Part shown: positions 6,953-45,935 of the stretch, piece by piece | Layout: each line of letters begins with the position of its first letter | How positions within the stretch are numbered: the stretch's first letter is position 1 | Assembly (NCBI GenBank): GCA_027451445.1 | Contig: DAIDJG010000040.1 | Span: 1 to 47,165 of the forward strand | Length of the DNA: 47,165 nucleotides | Direction: 5' to 3' | DNA from: Singulisphaera sp. | Lineage (GTDB): Bacteria > Planctomycetota > Planctomycetia > Isosphaerales > Isosphaeraceae | Made by a program: the position numbers and the translations under genes | Notes under the pieces: generated by a model | The model's database searches: none | What the model was told of the DNA's origin: nothing | The model's input: the letters and a program-made list of their open reading frames with translations, nothing else

Positions 6953-8008
6953 CTGCTGTTCTCCGAAAAGGATTTCCTGCGGCTCATTCGGGGCGAGGAT
7001 CGCGGCCCAGCAGCCGTCGCCGCGCGGGCAGGCCTGAGTTTGCTCGCCGGTGGCTACAGCCTGGGTGTCTCCGTCCGGAACCTGGCGTACGACCGAGGCT
7101 GGTCGCGGATCCACCGCGCTCAGGTCCCGGTGGTCTCGGTGGGTAACCTCACGCTGGGAGGGACCGGCAAAACTCCCATGGTGGAATGGGTCGCGCGCTG
7201 GTATCGCCGCCAAGGTATCCGTGTCGCGATCCTGAGCCGGGGGTATGGAGACTTCGAGGGGGTCAACGATGAGGGACGCGTCCTGGAGGAAAACCTTCCG
7301 GACGTGCCTCATCTTCAGGATCCAGATCGCGTGCGGATCGCCGGGATCGCGGTCGAGGAGTTGGAATCCCAGTTGCTCGTGCTCGACGATGGTTTCCAGC
7401 ACCGTCGGCTGGCGCGCGACCTCGACCTCGTGCTCCTTGATGCGCTCGAGCCGTTCGGGCTGGGCCGTCTCGTACCTCGGGGAGTGCTCCGCGAGCCAGT
7501 CCGCTCGTTGCGACGCGCCGGAGTGGTCATTCTGTCCCGAGCCGACCTTGTCAACGAATCGGAGCGGCGGGCGATCCGTGCCGAGGCAGAGCGCCGGGCG
7601 GGCCCGTTGCTCTGGGTCGAGGCTCGACATGCCGCGCTGGAGCTGGTGGACTCGAGTGGTGTTTCGTCGCCGGTCTCAGACCTGTCCAGCCGGACGGTCG
7701 CCGCGTTCTGCGGGATCGGCAACCCCGAAGGCTTTCGGCGGACGCTCTTGAATCTGGGCGTGGTGCTCAAGGATGTACGGACGTTTCCGGATCATCATCC
7801 CTACTCGGCCACGGATGTCGCGGAGCTCGCGAGCTGGGTCAACGGCCTGGGCGTGGATCTGGCCTTGACCACGCAGAAGGATTTCGTGAAGCTTCGCACC
7901 GATGCTCTTGGAGGCGTGCCCTTGCGCGCCTTGCGCATCGGACTGGAGATCATGGAAGGCGCGTCGGTGCTTGAAGAGAAACTCGCGCGGCTTCTCCCTT
8001 CGTCGTAG
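6953..8008 (+). CDS. lpxK: tetraacyldisaccharide 4'-kinase, lipid A biosynthesis
   Basis: LpxK adds the 4'-phosphate to the tetraacyl disaccharide precursor of lipid A at the inner face of the cytoplasmic membrane. Seen: the Walker A P-loop in [22 protein letters not shown], the [20 protein letters not shown] segment that carries the catalytic acidic residues, and a C-terminal Rossmann-like part ending [12 protein letters not shown] conventional start would be the TTG at 7040, but the frame upstream reads [18 protein letters not shown] and a helix leading into [10 protein letters not shown], which is the normal LpxK N-terminus. No ATG, GTG or TTG exists in frame between the stop at 6887 and 7040. 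A CTG at 6953 has GGGAG seven bases upstream and gives 351 residues, near the family length, so I place the start there. It follows icd by 2 bases. Confidence 0.85.
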
Positions 8009-8070
8009 GACTGGACAGAAGGGCATACGATTCGAATGGTCGAATACCACTGGAACGCGGGAACATAATT

Positions 8071-8173
8071 ACTCCCTCCCCCCTTGTGGGGGAGGGCCGG
8101 GGTGGGGGGTTCCGGGGACCACTGACGACGCGTCCCCCCCACCCCAGCCCTCCCCCACAAGGGGGGAGGGAGT
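8071..8173. repeat. GC-rich palindromic element, copy A
   Basis: A perfect 26-base inverted repeat: 8071-8096 is the exact reverse complement of 8148-8173. The arms contain a run of C, then TTGTGGGGGAGGG, and the inner parts are also complementary (GGGGTGGGGGG against CCCCCCACCCC). Read as protein in one frame it gives SLPPCGGG...PQPSPTRGEG, the same peptide as the copy inside the SDR gene at 10794. It lies in the gap between lpxK and the next gene. The type is widespread as an intergenic palindrome in high-GC bacteria. Confidence 0.85.
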
Positions 8174-8265
8174 TAAATCCGGCGCTCTCCTGCGTATAAG
8201 GTCAGTTGAATGGTGTTGCCCGCAAGGACCTACGGCTCCATCGTGCATGGAAAGGATTCCTGGCG

Positions 8266-9234
8266 ATGCTACCGGACGGCGACGATCTGGATTGGAGCGC
8301 GTTGCACTACGAGCCGCTCGCGGAGCGGCCGAGCAAGGTGTTCCTCGGTCATCTGGGCCAGCCCACCGGTCCCGGAGCGACGGTTGACGACTGGCTCGAC
8401 GGCCTTCCCGCGGTCCTTGCCGCGAACGGCTTGAAGCGACTGCGCGACGCGCTCGTCACCGCTCACGAGCGCGGTCGTCCCATCATGGCCGCCCTCGGAG
8501 GCCACGTGGTCAAGACGGGCTGTGCGCCGTACCTGATCGACTGGATGGAGCGAGGGGTACTCAAGGGACTCGCGCTGAACGGTTCGGCGGCAATCCACGA
8601 TCTGGAGCTCGCCATCGCGGGCAAGACCAGCGAGGATGTAGGCCCCCGGCTCGCCGAAGGAAGCTTTGGGTTTGCGCGCGAAACGTCCGACCTCTTCGCG
8701 TCCGCCTGCGAGCGAGCGGCCGCCCTGGAGTGCGGTCTCGGCACCGCGCTGGGTGACCTCGTGATCGAGCAAGGCGGTCCGGGACTCGACGCGAGCTTGC
8801 TCGCCGCCGCCCGGCGCTCTGGGCTGCCCTTGACCGTCCATGTCGGCATTGGAACTGACATCGTCCACATGAATCCTCGACTCAACGGCGCTGCGCTCGG
8901 CCAGGCGACTCTCGACGATTTTCGCACCCTGTGCGTCCTCGTCGCGGGTCTGGAGGGAGGCGTCTGGCTGAATCTCGGCAGCGCGGTGGTGCTTCCCGAG
9001 GTTTTCCTCAAAGCGGTGTCCGTTGTGCGCAACCTTGGTCACTCGCTCGATGGACTGACCACGGCGAACCTCGACTTCGACCAGAAATACCGAGGCCTCC
9101 TCAACGTCCTCCAGCGCCCCGGTGCAGAAGGTGTCGCGCTCACGGGACATCACGAACTGATGATCCCGCTCCTTCACGCGGCCGTCGTCGCGCGGCTCTC
9201 TGCGCCGGTGCCGGCGCGCAACGGTCACGGATGA
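8266..9234 (+). CDS. deoxyhypusine-synthase-like protein
   Basis: A 322-residue protein. The ATG at 8266 has AAAGGA nine bases upstream; a TTG at 8206 is the other choice. The core PIMAALGGHVVKTGCAPYLI, DWMERGVLKGLALNGSAAIHDLELAIAGKTSEDVG matches the NAD-binding part of deoxyhypusine/homospermidine synthases, whose equivalent reads IDLMERG, NGAG, IHDFE. The C-terminal part is divergent: where the family has a GGG-x-x-KHH segment this protein has LNLGSAVVLPEVFLKA, and the catalytic lysine of the NAD-linked aminobutyl transfer may or may not be the Lys in DQKYRGLL. Bacteria lack eIF5A-type hypusine, so a polyamine or other substrate is likely. The next gene starts within its stop codon, inside an LPS cluster. 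Family placement is fairly sure; the reaction is unknown. Confidence 0.65.
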   Translation: MLPDGDDLDWSALHYEPLAERPSKVFLGHLGQPTGPGATVDDWLDGLPAVLAANGLKRLRDALVTAHERGRPIMAALGGHVVKTGCAPYLIDWMERGVLKGLALNGSAAIHDLELAIAGKTSEDVGPRLAEGSFGFARETSDLFASACERAAALECGLGTALGDLVIEQGGPGLDASLLAAARRSGLPLTVHVGIGTDIVHMNPRLNGAALGQATLDDFRTLCVLVAGLEGGVWLNLGSAVVLPEVFLKAVSVVRNLGHSLDGLTTANLDFDQKYRGLLNVLQRPGAEGVALTGHHELMIPLLHAAVVARLSAPVPARNGHG

Positions 9235-10292
9235 TGTCATCGCCTGTGCAAAAGATCGTTGTCTTTTGCCCGAACCTGATCGGCGACACCGTCATGGCGA
9301 CGCCCGCCTTGCGCGCGCTGCGCCAAGGGTTCCCCGACGCGACCATCATCGGTGTGCTGAAACCCCACGTCGCCCCAACGCTCGACGGTTTGCGCTACTT
9401 CGACCGCGTGATTCGGTTCGATCCCAAGGCGCGCGACCGCAGTTTCCGCACACGCGCCGTACTCTCCGCGCTGCGAGCAGAGCGTCCCCACGTCGCCGTG
9501 CTGTTCCCGAACTCGTTCCGCTCCGGGCTCATGGCATGGCTCTCGGGAGCGCATCGGAGGGTGGGATACGCCCGAGGCGGCCGCGACGTGTTGCTCACCG
9601 ACCGCCTCGTGGAGCCTCGTGACCGCAACCGCCGGCGCGTGCCGAACCCGATCGTCGAGTACTACCTCGAGCTGCCCAGGCGTCTGGGATGCGCCTCGGA
9701 CTCGTTGCGGACCGAACTCGCCACGACGGACGCGGACGAAGCCGCCGCGGATCGTGCGTGGGAAGAACTGAGGCTCCCCGCGCACGAGCCGACCGTTTGC
9801 CTCAACACCGGGGGAGCCTTCGGTCCGGCGAAGAACTGGCCGGTGGAGCACTTCGCGATGCTTGCACGACGCCTCGCCGACGAACAAGGTCTCTCTGTCC
9901 TGGTCATTTGCGGCCCGAGCGAGCGCGCGAACGCGCAGGCGATCGTAACGAAGGCCGCGCACCCTCGCGTCGTGAGCCTGGCCGATCAGCCACTTAGCAT
10001 CGGCCTGAGCAAAGCGTGCGTACGGCGATCGGCGCTCCTGATCACGACCGACTCCGGCCCTCGCCACTTCGCCGCACCGTTTCGGGTACCCGTTTTGACG
10101 TTGTTCGGACCCACCTTCATCGCCTGGACGCGGACGCACGACCCATCCGCCATGCATCTCTTCCAACCCGTGCCCTGCGGACCGTGCCAGAAACCGGTCT
10201 GTCCACTCGGTCATCACCGCTGCATGCGCGAGCTCTCGCCGGAGGCCGTCTACCACGCGGCGCTGCGGATGCTGGTGCGGACGAGGAGTTGA
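9231..10292 (+). CDS. waaF: GT9 heptosyltransferase (LPS inner core)
   Basis: A 353-residue glycosyltransferase of family GT9. Enzymes of this family move heptose from ADP-heptose onto the Kdo/heptose core of LPS on the cytoplasmic side. Seen: the N-terminal Rossmann strand and donor loop IVVFCPNLIGDTVMATPALR, the middle VGYARGGRD, the C-terminal CLNTGGAFGPAKNWPVEHF and LLITTDSGPRHFAAPFRVPV, LTLFGPT. The C-terminus has a Cys-rich stretch (VPCGPCQKPVCPLGHHRC) also common in WaaF proteins. The gene starts at ATG 9231, overlapping the previous TGA by four bases; ATG 9234 is one codon later. The symbol is by family; WaaC or WaaQ activity is not excluded. The next gene begins five bases after its stop. 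Confidence 0.88.
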   Translation: MMSSPVQKIVVFCPNLIGDTVMATPALRALRQGFPDATIIGVLKPHVAPTLDGLRYFDRVIRFDPKARDRSFRTRAVLSALRAERPHVAVLFPNSFRSGLMAWLSGAHRRVGYARGGRDVLLTDRLVEPRDRNRRRVPNPIVEYYLELPRRLGCASDSLRTELATTDADEAAADRAWEELRLPAHEPTVCLNTGGAFGPAKNWPVEHFAMLARRLADEQGLSVLVICGPSERANAQAIVTKAAHPRVVSLADQPLSIGLSKACVRRSALLITTDSGPRHFAAPFRVPVLTLFGPTFIAWTRTHDPSAMHLFQPVPCGPCQKPVCPLGHHRCMRELSPEAVYHAALRMLVRTRS

Positions 10293-10297
10293 ATCCC

Positions 10298-11413
10298 ATG
10301 GCAAACTGGCTCGTCACGGGCGGGAACGGGTTTCTGGGCCGCCATCTGCTGAAGGCGTTGGAAGCTCTCGACGTCGAAGTCGCCGCGATCGGTCGTCGCC
10401 CTTTGGCGGCTCAAGGTTCGTTACGTTTTCACTACGCCGATCTCGAGCAGCCCGACACGATTCAAGTTGCGATCGAAGCCATCCGTCCTTCGGTCGTAAT
10501 CCACACGGCCGGTCTCACACCGCCCGCCGGGGCAGCCGAGCTCTATCGGGCGAACACCCTGGGCACAATCCACCTGCTCGACGCGTTGCGGCATAGTGGA
10601 TTGCCGGTGCGCGTCGTTCTGGCCGGATCCGCCGCCGAGCTCGGCCCCGTCGCAACGGAGGACCTGCCGGTTGGCGAGGATTACCACCCTCACCCCGTCG
10701 ATAGCTATGGGCTCAGCAAACTGCTGGCAACGACGGCGGGATTGGCCGCCAACGCACGCCGGGCACGCCTGTCCGAGGACGCGGCGTCTTCCGACTCCCT
10801 CCCCCCTTGTGGGGGAGGGTTCGGGTGGGCGGTTGCCGATGACGCCACGCCGATCCCTTCCCCCCCAACCAAGTCCTCCCCCACGAGGGGGGAGGGACTT
10901 AGAGAGTCCGAACCTCGCGCTCTGAGAATCGCATGTGCTGGTTTGGAGGTTATGGTCGCGCGCGTCTTCAACCCGATCGGCCCCGGATTACCTCCGAGCC
11001 AGGCGTTTGGCCGATTCGCAACGTTCCTGTCGCACGCGTCGCCCGGCCCTCTGACGATCACTGTCGGCGACCTCGAAGCTCGCCGCGATTTCATCGATGT
11101 CCGCGATGTGGCGCTTGCCTTCATCGCCGTTGCGATCCACGGACATCCTGGCTCGATTTACCACGTCGGCACAGGCCATTCGCATCGGGTGGGAGAGGGA
11201 CTCGACGAGTTGATCCGACTCAGTGGTCGAACGGTGCGCGTCGATGTCGACCCCACACTTGCCGCGCGCGGCGGCCCCAGAGATTCGCGGGCGAATATCG
11301 AGCGAATTGTCGCGCATACGGGCTGGCGGCCGGCAATTGCCTGGAACCAAAGCATCGCGGATTTGTGGGAGGACGCGAAGCGAAAGGCGCCGCGAACCGT
11401 AACTGCGGCGTAG
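10298..11413 (+). CDS. NAD-dependent SDR reductase/epimerase with an in-frame palindromic insertion
   Basis: A 371-residue extended short-chain dehydrogenase. Seen: the TGGNGFLGRHL nucleotide loop at residues 7-17, LAGSAAELG with the catalytic Ser, Y137-x-x-x-K141 in SYGLSK, ARVFNPIGPG, and VGDLEARRDFIDVRDV. The last two are typical of GDP-6-deoxy-D-mannose reductases (RMD), which make GDP-rhamnose-type sugars. Start ATG 10298 has AGGAG seven bases upstream. The odd part is about residues 158-213, between LAANARRA and LEVMVARV: a Gly/Pro-rich stretch (SLPPCGGGFGWAV, then SPPTKSSPTRGEG) that relatives do not need. It is coded by a palindromic element (10794-10899). The reading frame stays open through it, so the protein is probably made. 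A substrate other than a GDP-sugar is possible. Confidence 0.8.
   Translation: MANWLVTGGNGFLGRHLLKALEALDVEVAAIGRRPLAAQGSLRFHYADLEQPDTIQVAIEAIRPSVVIHTAGLTPPAGAAELYRANTLGTIHLLDALRHSGLPVRVVLAGSAAELGPVATEDLPVGEDYHPHPVDSYGLSKLLATTAGLAANARRARLSEDAASSDSLPPCGGGFGWAVADDATPIPSPPTKSSPTRGEGLRESEPRALRIACAGLEVMVARVFNPIGPGLPPSQAFGRFATFLSHASPGPLTITVGDLEARRDFIDVRDVALAFIAVAIHGHPGSIYHVGTGHSHRVGEGLDELIRLSGRTVRVDVDPTLAARGGPRDSRANIERIVAHTGWRPAIAWNQSIADLWEDAKRKAPRTVTAA
10794..10899. repeat. GC-rich palindromic element, copy B, inside a coding region
   Basis: The same kind of inverted repeat as at 8071: the left arm runs from 10794 (ACTCCCTCC, then TTGTGGGGGAGGG) and the right arm ends at 10899 (CCCCCACGAGGGGGGAGGG). 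It codes for residues 166-201 of the SDR gene without a stop codon or frame change. The centre differs from copy A in sequence but keeps the G-rich and C-rich flanks. Confidence 0.85.
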
Positions 11414-11562
11414 GCTGCGAGGGCTTCGTTGTCCATCGTTCGAGCGCGACGGGCATCCTTAGAGTGCGGGAGCTTGCACCGACTTTCGAACGGTCTCTGC
11501 CGCGGCACTCCAGAGCCTCCGGACTCCCCGCACGTCGCAGAATACCAACGCGCGTGTTGCCA

Positions 11563-11590
11563 TTGACCGCCCTGGCCATACCCCTATAAT
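11563..11590 (+). promoter_or_regulatory. sigma-70-like promoter for the 11651 operon
   Basis: TTGACC (11563-11568), a 16-base spacer and a perfect TATAAT (11585-11590), 60 bases upstream of the ATG at 11651. It sits in a 237-base gap and suggests that the membrane transferase, kinase and following genes have their own transcript. Confidence 0.6.
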
Positions 11591-11650
11591 TCCGCCCGAG
11601 CTTTGCGCGAAGGATCGCGCCGCGCCCCCAAGGGGTCTCACGGAGGAGCC

Positions 11651-13246
11651 ATGACCTGCCGCCGCATTCTGCTGGCGATCGTCGTGCTGGCGGCGGTCTT
11701 GCACAGCGTCGGCATCGCCCGCACGCTCCTTCCCGCGCAGGACGGCCTGAAGTTCCTGCGCATCGCCCGCCAGTTCCATCATCGGCCCTGGGCCGATGTG
11801 GTTCGAGGAACCGATCAGCACCCCCTCTACCCCGCCTTGATTGCTTTGGTTCAGCCCGTTGTCGCCTGCTTCGCCGGGGACGGAACGACGTCATGGCGAC
11901 TCGCGGCGCAGCTCGTGTCGGCCAGTGCGTCGGTTGCGTTGATTTTTCCACTCTTCGGGCTGATCCGCGCGTTGTTCAATGAGCGAATCGCCTGTGTCGG
12001 AGCTCTCGTTTACGCGCTGCTCCCGTTCCCGGCAATGATCGGGCACGACACCCTGAGTGATAGCGTGGCGTTACTCGCGTTTGTGCTCGCCTTGCGGATG
12101 GGCAAGATGGCCCTGCGCGGCGAAAACTGGCCCACGGCAGTGGGATGTGGGCTCGTCGCGGGCGTAGGCTTCCTGGCGCGTCCCGAGGCGCTCTTGGTGC
12201 CAGCCGCAGTCGTGTTGACGGCGGCGACGCGCTGGCGATTCGCCTTCAACCCAACCCGCCGGCTGATTCCGCAACTGTCGGCGCTCTCGATTGCGTTCCT
12301 GGCGATGGTGGGGATTTACGCCCTCTTCAAGGGCGAGGTCTCCGAGAAGCTTGCGTTGCGAAACGGTGCGGCGCTCGCGCACAAACCTGCCGTGGTCCGT
12401 CAAGTCGCGCAGTGGCTCCCTCCGGGATTAAACGACCGTCGGTGGGACTTCTCGCCAAAGGAAGAGGCCGATGAAAGCCCTAAAACCGGTGCCTTGGCGA
12501 TCGTCGGCCGGCTCATTCAGCAATGGAGCGAAGGGCTTGGTTGGATCTTCGCGTTTTTCGCGCTTTGGGGCGTTGCACGCGATAGTTTCATACTTCGCTA
12601 CATCGGACGGGCCGATGACAACGATCCGGTCACGATCGGCCGACGCTTGATCGCCGTCTATCTCCTTCTTTTTTGCGCCGTGCTCGTGCGACACGCCTGG
12701 AAGATGGGCTACCTCTCGGGCCGGCATACCCTGACGCTCGTGATCGTGTCGATCCCGTGGGCCGCTGCGGGAACTTACGTGTGCGCCCGGCGGCTCGCGG
12801 AGAAATGCCGGTGGCAGCCACGGCTTGCCAGAAGCGTTGGGCTGGTGACCCTGTTCCTGGCACTCACGGCCAGCGTGGCGATCCAGCTCAAGCCGAGCCA
12901 CCCGACGCGCTGGGGACACTGGGCCGCAGGCCAATGGCTCGCCGAGAACGCGCAAGCCGGCGAATCGATCCTCGACACCCGAGGCTGGGCTGCGTTCGTC
13001 TCGGGCAAACCAGGCTACGACTACTGGCATGTCCGGCAAGCGTTCACCGACTCGCACCTCTCGTACATCGTCGTTGGCACAGATGAGCTTCGAGCAGAAA
13101 GCCAACGCGCGGCGACCTTGCGGGCCGTGCTGGCCTACGCCGCGGAACCGGTCGCGAGTTTCCCTGCGATGCAGGGCGAACGCACGATCGGCGTGCAGGT
13201 TTACCGCTACCATCGCCCCGCCTCGTGGGAGGGCTTACGCCCATGA
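11651..13246 (+). CDS. GT-C/ArnT-like membrane glycosyltransferase
   Basis: A 531-residue polytopic membrane protein with the layout of the PMT/ArnT/GT39 group. A first TM helix (ILLAIVVLAAVLHSVGIA) is followed by a loop with QDGLKFLRIARQF, and then by TDQHPLYPALIAL, where Asp and His lie close to where GT39 enzymes keep their acidic catalytic motif. About ten more TM helices follow, then a soluble C-terminus from about residue 425 (AAGQWLAENAQAGESILDTR). Such enzymes transfer sugars from a polyprenyl-phosphate donor on the periplasmic side. The start ATG has GGAGGA five bases upstream and a good promoter further up. Its stop overlaps the next gene by four bases. In this cluster it may modify lipid A or the LPS core, but the sugar is unknown. 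Confidence 0.75.
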   Translation: MTCRRILLAIVVLAAVLHSVGIARTLLPAQDGLKFLRIARQFHHRPWADVVRGTDQHPLYPALIALVQPVVACFAGDGTTSWRLAAQLVSASASVALIFPLFGLIRALFNERIACVGALVYALLPFPAMIGHDTLSDSVALLAFVLALRMGKMALRGENWPTAVGCGLVAGVGFLARPEALLVPAAVVLTAATRWRFAFNPTRRLIPQLSALSIAFLAMVGIYALFKGEVSEKLALRNGAALAHKPAVVRQVAQWLPPGLNDRRWDFSPKEEADESPKTGALAIVGRLIQQWSEGLGWIFAFFALWGVARDSFILRYIGRADDNDPVTIGRRLIAVYLLLFCAVLVRHAWKMGYLSGRHTLTLVIVSIPWAAAGTYVCARRLAEKCRWQPRLARSVGLVTLFLALTASVAIQLKPSHPTRWGHWAAGQWLAENAQAGESILDTRGWAAFVSGKPGYDYWHVRQAFTDSHLSYIVVGTDELRAESQRAATLRAVLAYAAEPVASFPAMQGERTIGVQVYRYHRPASWEGLRP

Positions 13247-19628: not shown

Positions 19629-19784
19629 CGGACCGGCCCTCTCGGATGGATCAACGGCAGCGGAGCAACTCATGAAAGTCGCCCGTACTGTCGCTGATCG
19701 GATCGCGCCACGCAAGCGACGAGCGCTGGAAGTTCCCACACTTTTCGAGCTGCGGAAAGCGTGGTTCGCCGGTGATCAGACATC

Positions 19785-19841
19785 GATAGTCGACTTTCGC
19801 TCCGCGAAAGATTTTCTTTCGCGGAGCGAAAGTCGACTATC
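19785..19841. terminator. perfect 26-base-pair hairpin, candidate bidirectional terminator
   Basis: 19785-19810 is the exact reverse complement of 19816-19841, with the five-base loop ATTTT. The arm includes TAGTCGACTTTCGCTCCGCG. It lies between two genes on the minus strand, after the stop of DUF1501. The stem is far longer than an ordinary rho-independent terminator and has no U-run, so it may instead be a mobile palindrome. Confidence 0.55.
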
Positions 19842-19891
19842 AATGCGCTGTTGATGTTTGCAATCGCGTCGGGCGAGGGCTGCCGCCTCGA

Positions 19892-35406: not shown

Positions 35407-35585
35407 ATAACCCCCCCCCCTTGGGAAGGGGGGGGTTAGGGGGGGTGGGGAGTAAGCCCACGCATTCGGCTGGTCCCGTCGCCCCTCAACAGTTAAACGC
35501 AGGAGAGTGGTTCGTGGCTGAGTTGCACACTTCGGACGTCAAATCCCCACCCCCCCTACCCCCCCTTCCCAAGGGGGGGAGTTAT
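35407..35585. repeat. palindromic element, copy C, overlapping the start of a gene
   Basis: Left arm 35407-35451 (ATAACCCC, then TTGGGAAGGGGG, then GGGGTGGGGA) pairs with the right arm 35544-35585 (TCCCCACCCC, then CCCTTCCCAAGGGGG, then AGTTAT) with few mismatches, mainly in run length. The 92-base centre contains AGGAG (35501-35505) and the GTG (35514) from which the next gene can be read, and the right arm falls in that gene's N-terminal codons. Confidence 0.75.
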
Positions 35586-43371: not shown

Positions 43372-43735
43372 TCGGCGGCCGAATGGAATGTGCGAACACT
43401 GAGGCCGCGCGTGGTTATGCGCACGAGCGCGCGCGGTCGATGCTTGCGGCCGGACGTCGCTAGAGCGCTTAACGGTTGGGTTGCACACGATCAGCCATCG
43501 ACGGTCTCCGCTCTACATCATCCCAAACCTCTGAACTCGCCTAAACGTTATGGGCGTGAGTAAAGTTTCCTCCCTCCCCCCATCGTGGGGGAGGGCTGGG
43601 GTGGGGGGGGCCGTCGCACGCCCATGGGTTGCCCGGAACCCCCCACCCCAACCCTCCCCCACAAGGGGGGAGGGAGTTCTGATGCTTCTGTGTTTTGATT
43701 GGTTATCAAGGTGCGCAATCCAACCGTTCGGCGCT
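43372..43735. other. gap with a palindromic element, no gene
   Basis: About 360 bases between two convergent genes. Apart from the palindrome at 43570-43676 I see no frame with a ribosome site and no T-run terminator. Confidence 0.6.
43570..43676. repeat. GC-rich palindromic element, copy D
   Basis: Left arm 43570-43595 (CTCCCTCC, then ATCGTGGGGGAGGG) and right arm 43652-43676 (CCCTCCCCCACAAGGG then GGAGGGAG) pair almost perfectly; the inner G-rich and C-rich blocks also pair. Same family as copies A and B. Confidence 0.8.
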
Positions 43736-45313
43736 CTAGGCCTGCAAGAATGCGTGACGAGCCAGCGTCCGGAGGATTTCATCGATCGAGCCTTCGAGGA
43801 TCGCCGTGAGTTGCGCGGTGTCGGTGACCGGCTGACCGTTTTGACGAACCGTTAAGCCGCTCGTCTGGATCGACTCCTGGAGGGCCTTCACAAGTTCGGT
43901 CCGATCGCGCTCACCATCCAGGTTGGCGAGAGTCAGCCGGCCGAGGTCATCGAGTTGGAGGTTCTGCCCGCGAAGATTGGTCAGACTCCGGCCTTCCGAC
44001 GCTTGCAATCGCGCAAGTCGTGTCGCCCTGGGGTGTTTTTCCACCGTGTGAGCCACACGCAGCCCTCGAAGGCGGCATTCGATCAACCCCGACGCCAGAC
44101 ACGTGAGAAGGTCGGCGCCCAGTTGATTCTCGACGGCTTCCGTCGCGTGGGTCTCGCGCGTCTCTTGCTCGCACAACGAACCGACCCGACGGACCAGATC
44201 CGCAAAGGCGATCTCCGAGGGCCAGCACCTCGACAACAGGACAAAGGCCGCCTTGCACACCGAACCCGTGATCGTCGCCTTGACCCCGTTCGGCAGCGCG
44301 AACTCTTCCGGGATACCCATAGCGAGCGACACGCTCTCTCGGACCGGTTTGGCCGGACTGGAGAACCAGAAGCTCCGTACATCCTGCGGGCCGAGATTAC
44401 GACGAAGCACGACATCGTTATGACACACCAGCGTTTGCCGGAACATCCGGTTGCGGACGAAGTCCATGTACTGGTCCATCTGCACGATATCGTGCGCACC
44501 CAGCCGGTTGAGGGTCTCGGCGATGCCCGGCGTGAAGTTTGACGCGATCATGGTCGCAAATTCCGACTCGGCCAGGTATTGCAGGCCATGGGCGGACAAC
44601 TGCTGGGCGAACTCGTGGAAGTAGAGAGGCTGATTCTCGTCCTCGAGGTGATCGTGATAGAGGTAGAACGCGTCCGCCTTCGAAAGGAACGCGAGCTCGG
44701 ACTTGAGCAACTGAATATACGGGTTGTTCTCGGCCGGGAGCGCGTTCGCGACAAACTCAACGAGCGCTTTTGCCTGAGCCACTTGCGTGGGCGCATCGCG
44801 AAACTGCCGGCCGTGGAACCGCATCATGTCGCGGACGATGCCCCGGATATGCCAGCCCGGGTACGTGTTGTAGCTGATGTATGCCACGCCGTTCGGAGCG
44901 AGGTTCGTTTTGCAGATCTGAAGGATCTTGTCGCGAAGACGAGCCGGCACCCAGGAGAAAACGCCGTGCGTGACGATGTAGTCGAACGTTCCGAATTCGG
45001 GGCCGACGTCCGCGAGGTCCATGTGCTTGAGTTCGATATTCGTGACGCCGAGTCTCTCGATCAGCATTTGGCCTTGCTCGATCTGCCGCGCCGAATTATC
45101 GACACCGACGAAACGGCTGTCCGGCAGATTCTGAGCCATCCCCTGGAGGTTTCCGCCGCTGGCGCAGCCGATTTCGAGTACGCGACAGTGCTCGACCGGT
45201 GGCGGATCCATGCCGAAAAGCTTGGCCAGGACCGCAAGTTGGTCGGGATGGGATTGAGGGAAGGAATGACTGTCGTAGGGGACGTCATCGTAACTGCTCG
45301 GTGCACCGCTCAT
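43736..45313 (-). CDS. SAM-dependent methyltransferase with methyltransferase regulatory domain
   Basis: A 525-residue protein. Residues 10-170 are a class I methyltransferase fold: RVLEIGCASGGNLQGMAQNL with the SAM-binding loop, FVGVDNSARQIEQGQ, FDYIVTHGVFSWVP and PNGVAYISYNTYPGWHIRGI. This last segment and MMRFHGRQF begin the MethyTransf_Reg domain (PF10119 type), which continues with YLYHDHLEDENQPLYFHEF and AQQLSAHGLQYLAESEF. A third part has FALPNGVKATITGSVCKAAF and a winged-helix-like end. Such proteins include PKMT protein lysine methyltransferases of Rickettsia, which act on outer-membrane proteins; planctomycete members are untested. Start ATG 45313, with AAGGGG eight bases upstream. 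It is convergent with the GT-C gene and stands alone. Confidence 0.85.
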   Translation of the reverse strand: MSGAPSSYDDVPYDSHSFPQSHPDQLAVLAKLFGMDPPPVEHCRVLEIGCASGGNLQGMAQNLPDSRFVGVDNSARQIEQGQMLIERLGVTNIELKHMDLADVGPEFGTFDYIVTHGVFSWVPARLRDKILQICKTNLAPNGVAYISYNTYPGWHIRGIVRDMMRFHGRQFRDAPTQVAQAKALVEFVANALPAENNPYIQLLKSELAFLSKADAFYLYHDHLEDENQPLYFHEFAQQLSAHGLQYLAESEFATMIASNFTPGIAETLNRLGAHDIVQMDQYMDFVRNRMFRQTLVCHNDVVLRRNLGPQDVRSFWFSSPAKPVRESVSLAMGIPEEFALPNGVKATITGSVCKAAFVLLSRCWPSEIAFADLVRRVGSLCEQETRETHATEAVENQLGADLLTCLASGLIECRLRGLRVAHTVEKHPRATRLARLQASEGRSLTNLRGQNLQLDDLGRLTLANLDGERDRTELVKALQESIQTSGLTVRQNGQPVTDTAQLTAILEGSIDEILRTLARHAFLQA

Positions 45314-45388: not shown

Positions 45389-45935
45389 TTGTGAAAACGA
45401 CCGAACCGTCGGGCCATGGCGATTGCCATCGTCCCCGCGTTTTCAGCTATCATCGACACATCATGGCCCCGACCTTTCGAGAGACCGTTCTTGTGCCCGA
45501 ATGGATTCCTGCGCCGCGGGCTCGACGCGTCATCGACACGACGAGCCCGGCGGATTCTCGCGGGGTGTGAAGAACGGAACTACCGGCGGGCCGAAGGTAT
45601 TCTTTTCCGAGTTCTTTGAGGCCTACTTTCCTGCGTCGGCTGCCCCTTTTTGATTTCACTCAGATCGATCGGCTCGAACAGGAGCGACTGTAGCAAGGAT
45701 ACAGGGGATGTTCCTCCGGGCGCCCCTCCGGCCGGGCCGTTCCATTCTGGGTATCGACCGGTCGACGGAGTCCGCAGGCTTTGGAGTGCGGGGGCTTGCT
45801 CCCGCTTTCGCGCTGGAAATACGGTTCGAAAGTGGAGATTCGGGAAGGCCGTTGGAACGCGACAGGATACCTGTCGGAGCGTGCAGGCGGTACAAACGCG
45901 GGAGCAAGCCCCCACACTCAACGCCGTTAACGATT
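45389..45935. other. gap next to an IS4 element
   Basis: About 550 bases between two minus-strand genes. A 35-codon frame on the + strand (45463-45570, MAPTFRETVLVPEWIPAPRA then RRVIDTTSPADSRGV) reads like a small genuine protein or a gene remnant, but it has no clear ribosome site. Its last two-thirds lie before a palindrome at 45785-45919. No other gene signal. Confidence 0.4.
45785..45919. repeat. palindromic element beside the IS4 transposase
   Basis: 45785-45806 (GAGTGCGGGGGCTTGCTCCC plus GC) is the reverse complement of 45898-45919 but for one base. A single half of the same motif (GAGTGCGGGAGCTTGCACC) is at about 11460. It ends 16 bases from the transposase stop. It may be a REP-like target of IS insertion or a sequence carried by the IS. 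Confidence 0.65.

Follow-up and report, generated by a model that had tools for sequence, protein, structure and literature searches.

A palindrome-bearing in-frame insertion in an SDR gene of Singulisphaera sp. and a candidate third type among the MITE-like elements of its genome

The window, i.e., the whole stretch of 47,165 nucleotides that was analysed, is contig 40 of a 10.88-Mb draft genome (622 contigs) from a Singulisphaera sp. of the family Isosphaeraceae. It contains an SDR gene whose product shows 56–67% identity to six relatives (alignment A1) and is matched by the Pfam Epimerase model in two stretches, the best of which covers residues 4–153. A preliminary description, made from the letters alone, had reported an inverted repeat inside this gene. 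The repeat was confirmed here: its two arms are 37 nt each, 84% complementary and spaced by 28 nt, and the predicted RNA fold of the core is strong (−71.3 kcal/mol, z −5.3), being equalled in 0 of 200 shuffles. As also described before, the frame is open throughout, with YGLSK at residues 137–141 followed by the insert and then by ARVFNPIGPG. Outside the insert, the protein is intact in alignment A1, in which the motifs GGxGFLG, YGxSK, FNPIGPG and RDFxDxRD are all present. The two further copies that had been noted at 8071 and 43570 proved to be real, with arms 76–98% identical to the reference arms, and the peptide SLPPCGGG...PSPTRGEG does occur in one frame of the copy at 8071, whose RNA fold reaches −99.3 kcal/mol (z −9.7). 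These features are listed in Table 1.

Table 1 Features of the SDR locus and of the two other core copies (positions within the window)
Feature	Position	Strand	Basis or remark
Type-A MITE-like element with diverged terminal inverted repeats (TIRs), core 8071–8173	about 8024–8219	+	ends by eye
SDR gene, NAD-dependent epimerase/dehydratase, 371 aa, insert-bearing	10298–11413	+	Pfam Epimerase 3.6e-36; relatives
Inserted segment, residues 153–215, 63 aa (relatives 2 to 4)	10754–10942	+	comparison with relatives
GC-rich double-hairpin core, residues 166–201, SLPPCGGG...PSPTRGEG frame	10794–10899	+	
Left core arm	10796–10832	+	
Right core arm	10861–10897	+	
Type-B MITE-like element, 280 bp, 27-bp TIRs, CTAG ends, core 43570–43677	43460–43739	−	

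The SDR protein was searched for in 59 genomes (its own and 58 relatives) and was matched in 36 relatives, all from the same family as the host. In 29 of these, the match fell into two pieces, one for residues 1 to ~152 and one from ~212 to the end; in the relative, the two share a small overlap or are separated by ~21 nt at most. The other seven gave a single piece; two of them (G013 and G014) could be aligned and lack the insert, while the remaining five matched one side only and are uninformative. Thus, the insert is absent from 31 of the 36 matching relatives. An alignment of 29 open reading frames from relatives gave the same picture: 26 have 2 residues at this site and one has 4, compared with 63 here (the remaining two rows, L021 and L031, are wrong frames). 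The net gain is ~61 residues, and the insert is wider than the palindrome; the insertion suspected earlier at about residues 158–213 therefore stood, with its extent enlarged to 153–215. Judged by these comparisons, the SDR gene carries a palindrome-bearing in-frame insertion. In the nearest PDB alignment (2pk3), query residues 143–211 lie opposite ten residues, making it plausible that the insert sits in a surface loop. AlphaFold2 on the SDR protein, with a 3-row alignment, gave a mean pLDDT of 35 and a pTM of 0.37, and this model was discarded. The insert (60 aa) had no match in NCBIfam up to E 10, and Rfam had none in 7000–12000. Five distant viral SDR homologues were found, none with alignment A1.

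The repeat is not a chance event in this genome, since 183 matches to its arm motif were counted per strand (192 for a short arm motif) versus 0 for the reversed control. The core consists of two inverted imperfect palindromes and is nearly stop-free by composition. At least 78 distinct two-armed copies were found, a set that leaves out damaged, single-arm and some contig-end copies. Automatic typing by the surrounding sequence ("shell") assigned 39 copies to type A and 20 to type B, while eight had features of both and 11 of neither; the first three groups (67 copies) form the A/B class in the tests below. Among the eight mixed copies, three (L107, L109 and L270) end like type B and two (L069 and L123) like type A; L074 and L075 seem to be genuine chimaeras, with an A end on the left and a B end on the right, and L090 is ambiguous. 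The copies at 8071, at 43570 and in the SDR gene had been taken for the same element; the core is indeed shared, but the shells of the first two differ (A and B, respectively), and neither is of the SDR type.

Type A has the terminal repeat CAATACCGTTCAA and a length of 194–207 bp, mostly 196–199 bp, in the 22 copies with both ends. An exact 10-bp target duplication was present in nine of these 22 copies, and the mean match was 7.1 of 10 positions versus 3.9 (maximum 5.3) in 1000 shuffled pairings. Type B is represented by 18 copies with both 27-bp TIRs, measuring 276–280 bp and mostly ending in CTAG. No duplication beyond the CTAG ends was detected in these 18 copies, which suggests that type B makes a TA duplication, as IS630-type elements do. 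When compared with the usual description of MITEs, the lengths of A, B and the type C introduced below all lie within 70–300 bp without a transposase gene; TIRs are present in A and B and tentative in C; and a target duplication was found for A, is compatible with TA for B and was not found for C. Types A and B are thus MITE-like by test, and type C is so by likeness. In the draft genome, inward-facing A ends at the distance expected of an IS were found once, as a 1.85-kb pair on contig 558, which was rejected as an autonomous element, being two separate A copies; likewise, no autonomous partner with B ends was present among the matches listed.

The same core was found in several shells, and B ends also surround quite different hairpin cores (L364, L366 and L369), so that, on sequence comparison, shells and cores give the impression of modules that can be swapped. 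Recombination in the arms is the simplest guess for how cores are exchanged. Several minor forms were also observed. Single-arm A forms (L117, L118 and L119; 121–123 bp) and single-arm B forms (L365 and L370; about 198–199 bp) have lengths that fit a deletion between the two arms. A third small element, with ends near CTCACTGATGGAGGTTTT / AAAACCTCCATCAGTGAG, lies within the core of an A copy (L122; contig 33, 15953–16310) and of a B copy (L368). L120 and L121 are 257-bp relatives with A-type ends and the core CCTCTCCC / GGGTGAGGGG.

Two inverted imperfect palindromes per core, the presence of the same core in several shells and nine PF01797 genes in the genome could also mean that the core is REPIN-like and moved by a RAYT tyrosine transposase, with the A, B and C shells being incidental. 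We consider this unlikely. None of the 78 copies has GTAG or its complement at 8 nt or less from the outer ends, and one has CGTC or its complement there (1 and 0, respectively, for the inner tails); the A copies have 10-bp duplications and terminal repeats of their own. Furthermore, only one of the nine PF01797 loci has a core arm nearby, ~1.4 kb away and within a type-B element, although five of the nine stretches end at contig ends. With no consistent link at these nine loci, RAYT was rejected as the mover.

Of the 11 copies without an A/B shell, ten align beyond the core, some of them partly, which suggests a third shell type, C, by the likeness of their flanks. Because type C is assigned partly by the absence of A/B features, a decayed A/B copy could be labelled C. 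In an alignment of ten of the 11 copies and the contig 344 copy (filed as A, its left end resembling type A and its right end type C), likeness beyond the core was clear on at least one side for the TrpF, FHA, HemC and OEP copies and one NRPS copy, and weak for the SDR copy and another NRPS copy. Type C measures about 260–290 bp in trpF and FHA and has a tentative terminal repeat, GTTGAAAAC-like, recognised by eye; no target duplication was found, and the SDR copy and one NRPS copy are without clear ends. From the partial likeness of its core flanks to the other type-C copies, the SDR segment is probably a shortened type-C element.

A search of the genome for the arms and a count of those in coding frames, which the preliminary description had proposed, showed that eight of the 78 two-armed copies run in frame through genes, all eight belonging to the 11 C-like copies. 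They lie in the SDR gene, in trpF (domain PRAI), in an FHA protein, in an OEP-type protein (outer membrane efflux protein) and at four core places in two NRPS genes with frames of 4,639 and 3,288 codons. Their open reading frames extend at least 85 codons on each side of the core. The rest of the 11 comprise a copy before the deaminase domain of HemC, a contig 558 copy outside the coding frame, and a copy cut by a contig end (L061), which may be an A copy. The HemC copy was not counted among the eight, as the deaminase domain starts at residue 87 of 389 and the core precedes it. At this HemC N-terminus (L253, ~1475–1715), STSPRALRIGT and FSTSSPLRIGT (~30 nt) flank the core as if the start had been duplicated, as seen by eye.

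The contrast between the classes is strong: none of the 67 A/B copies is in frame versus eight of the 11 others (Fisher p 7e-9, an indicative value, as copies were treated as independent and the class was defined partly by exclusion). Since the NRPS copies pair up at like positions in related modules, the eight copies correspond to about six insertion events. A coding score trained on 21 open reading frames of the window was positive on both sides in seven of the 11 copies, with FHA and OEP barely above zero on one side; TrpF scored −0.04 on one side and was counted in the coding set because its relatives show the insertion. For four A/B copies (L050, L072, L073 and L286), the score is slightly above zero on either side, yet the frame runs into stops within 15–36 codons, and L074 is open for 107 and 140 codons with a negative score on one side; thus, no A/B copy combines an open frame with a positive score on both sides. 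The suggestion that a stop-poor element spreads into proteins therefore held for the core, which is in frame in trpF, FHA, OEP and two NRPS genes besides SDR, but not for the A/B copies, the coding copies being of the third type.

The trpF copy offers a close parallel to the SDR copy. About 97 residues (156–252) are absent from all 42 matching relatives (of 44), in which TrpF is matched in two pieces, one ending at 151–173 and the other starting at 241–257, at most ~42 nt apart; in Thermotoga TrpF, 12 residues stand between the matched pieces versus 107 here. By this comparison, the trpF insert is a second proof of in-frame insertion. The insert (~139–252), in part or whole, matches the FHA, NRPS, HemC, OEP, contig 344 and contig 558 copies of its own genome and one A core, while no match was found in the relatives at E 1e-10. 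These data also bear on the possibility that the SDR copy is dead or unexpressed, or that its open frame is an artefact of a draft assembly. Although the draft has 622 contigs and some arms lie close to contig ends, both sides of the SDR gene are intact with invariant motifs and positive coding scores, its core is a unique, diverged copy (the best other copy shows 86% over 118 nt), and trpF gives the same picture; we therefore regard this possibility as very improbable.

The inserts use one frame per orientation. In one orientation (TrpF, FHA and the four NRPS places), the frame is always PSPLVGEG-like...NPPPQGGRE-like; SDR, OEP and the HemC N-terminus have the core in the opposite orientation, and their frame is always LPPCGGG...PSPTRGE(G) or nearly so. 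The used frame has 0 stops over the core ±85 nt in all nine copies, while the other frames mostly have some. The inner arm spacing takes a value of 53 or 56 nt throughout the eight coding copies and of 56 nt in the two other C copies measured; it ranges over 49–58 nt in the A/B copies, of which 17 of 64 measured (3 unmeasured) are in the same phase. Core length in the coding copies thus changes by threes, as a kept frame predicts, with common descent of the C copies contributing too.

How far the peptide itself is constrained was indicated by one NRPS pair (L258/L266). Its insert has 18 nonsynonymous and 7 synonymous changes (dN.124, dS.125; 25 changes in this single pair), of which the core alone has 4. 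The next 300 codons give dN.014 and dS.276 (dN/dS ~0.05), and the 200 codons before the insert, with dN.183 and dS.575, are fairly relaxed too. With dN/dS near 1, this NRPS insert drifts as if free, while the remainder of the gene maintains the frame, and the insert peptide appears to be tolerated rather than useful. One could instead suppose that the peptide alters or regulates its host proteins and is itself under selection, given that several genes retain both frame and core, each orientation showing the same pair of peptides, and that cores are likewise in frame in the linker of an FHA homologue from another genus. However, the host enzymes are unrelated, the kept frame and peptide follow from core composition plus gene survival, and dN/dS is ~1 in the sole pair tested, so that such a service looks quite unlikely. 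Weaker hairpins in the coding copies than in the others were not supported (p 0.22), even though the SDR and OEP hairpins are the weakest two of the eight. As hairpin strength is undiminished, the mRNAs of the coding copies should contain, within the genes, hairpins with predicted energies of −69 to −98 kcal/mol.

The SDR gene shows an insertion, an open frame and intact flanks, the insertion recurs in other genes, and one insert pair drifts neutrally. We propose that a non-autonomous, MITE-like type-C element, open in one frame per strand and presumably mobilised by a transposase in trans, inserted into the SDR gene at the loop that links the YxxxK helix to the following strand. The ribosome would read through the insert, yielding an enzyme that carries an extra loop of ~61 residues and may retain its activity. 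Selection would remove gene-breaking copies, and the survivors would be open frames in loops or linkers, of which only the frame is maintained. We give this reading, i.e., a type-C insertion into the SDR loop that is read through and tolerated with the frame alone being kept, a probability of about 0.8.

The core was also followed outside the Singulisphaera genome. Counts of the short arm motif per strand are 7 (control 1) in the one other genome of the genus and 173 and 71 (controls 4 and 1) in two genomes from a different genus, whose loop sequences differ. At least one such motif was present in 24 of 45 family genomes, but only the larger counts are meaningful, as the control is sometimes nearly as high (12 vs 8, 6 vs 5). 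A longer pattern matched seven of 392 genomes of the phylum, the six others having one or two matches with controls of 0. On these motif counts, the core expansion is local, and it probably occurred more than once. In 20 stretches of one of the two genomes of the other genus (G024), drawn from the matches listed among its 173 arm hits, in-frame cores were found in an FHA homologue (two places), a U32 peptidase and a Pfam-less protein (L341, L358 and L349); they are counted as in-frame cores, not as proven insertions. Two others with scores above zero (L339 and L342) look antisense and were not counted.

A scan of GTDB returned at least 114 stretches, many of them from Alphaproteobacteria, Chloroflexi and others; most are metagenome bins. 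Because the pattern was fixed in advance, similar cores in different phyla do not prove a shared origin. Twenty-five stretches were too near an edge, and 17 of the 89 tested, at the first hit per locus, scored as coding through the core. Because a locus-trained score is partly circular on foreign loci, these were checked with Pfam, which supports nine as cores inside conserved genes. With names read from Pfam matches and sequence, these are CarA (L154), a phosphomutase-type metalloenzyme (L155), a phage terminase (L164), a response-regulator/Hpt protein (L171), PurL (L174), DnaE2 (L182), RarA (L184), CoaBC (L223) and RlmJ (L226); for L155, L174 and L226, the Pfam support on one side comes from a further matched stretch whose position was not listed. 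Domains were confined to one side of the core in DnaG (L205) and a DNA ligase (L237), and L166 has none. Five stretches that are coding by score without a Pfam domain (L143, L144, L194, L198 and L225) were dropped as probably antisense.

In-frame palindromic inserts are a known kind of element. Published reports describe Rickettsia and Wolbachia palindromic elements of 100–150 bp that lie in frame in unrelated conserved genes and elsewhere and are solvent-exposed in models (PMC3767692, PMC2229807), including a Gmk product that is reported to be translated and active (PMC2229807, PMC3767692, PMC10969869). Similarly, intragenic REPs with GTAG/CGTC tags in Opitutus terrae, Thauera and Rickettsia form hairpin dimers or clusters that code for tens of residues, with hosts including DnaE2 and DNA ligase (PMC3733652). 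NEMIS occur as a 107-bp open-frame form in genes and a 155-bp stop-bearing form almost only between genes (PMC2229807); enterobacterial RU elements are intragenic MITE-like repeats (PMC2759123), and Cod-2 is a small repeat in coding sequences (PMC2267715). The parallel drawn earlier to the Rickettsia elements is thus apt as to kind, while the phenomenon is not confined to Rickettsia: intragenic palindromic or MITE-like repeats have also been published from Opitutus, Thauera, Neisseria and enterobacteria.

Like the Rickettsia elements, the element described here is a recurring palindrome that lies in frame within a number of unrelated genes. It differs in being GC-rich and hosted by Planctomycetota (Isosphaeraceae) rather than Rickettsiales, a separation based on the host, and in that its core is common to several MITE-like shells, with only the non-A/B copies found to run through genes. 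It resembles the intragenic REPs in placing hairpins inside genes and in similar hosts (DnaE2 and the ligase above), but its arms have no GTAG/CGTC tag, and the elements are larger and mostly in TIR-bearing shells. The nearest match is NEMIS, whose open form in genes and stop-bearing form between genes parallel C versus A/B; NEMIS/Correia and RU elements differ in their hosts, and here the gene-entering type seems, tentatively, to have its own ends. In the open-access literature, no description of palindromic repeats in planctomycetes, Isosphaeraceae included (in keeping with the earlier statement on the bacterial group), of the insert peptides or of GC-rich palindromic families in proteins was found, and the matches listed for the arm motif and peptides had only the DNA motif. 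What looks new is the third type, the swapping of cores between shells and how widely the pattern occurs.

PSPLVGEG and PTRGEG are recurrent peptides in annotated proteins, and the findings may explain them as mobile DNA. Translated palindromes would also not be tied to reduced intracellular genomes, as they are seen here in several genes of a 10.9-Mb bacterium, with the same in-frame pattern in conserved genes of other phyla. The natural series of enzymes with inserts of ~60–97 residues may help to study how ribosomes pass stable hairpins and how enzymes tolerate loops. A broader idea, which is possible but on which we would not bet, is that double-hairpin cores are interchangeable cassettes in MITE shells of different transposases (A with a 10-bp duplication and B with a probable TA duplication), and that one shell type, stop-free in one fixed frame per strand, is specialised for genes and decorates proteomes in several phyla with the same kind of drifting peptide.

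Three other repeats were observed in the window. A 166-bp two-armed GC palindrome of like design, CCCCCCCTTGGGAAGGGGGGG...GGTTAGGGGGGGTGGGG, lies at 35414–35579; similar sequence elsewhere hosts the type-A copies L059, L273, L296 and L122, three of them with the duplication CCCCTACCCC. An inverted repeat at 45784–45919 (GAGTGCGGGGGCTTGCTCCCGCTTT) has a near copy as the core of the type-B shell at L364 and is probably another exchangeable core. Finally, a 31-nt inverted repeat with arms 3 nt apart and 97% complementary (CATCGATAGTCGACTTTCGCTCCGCGAAAGA) was found at 19781–19845.
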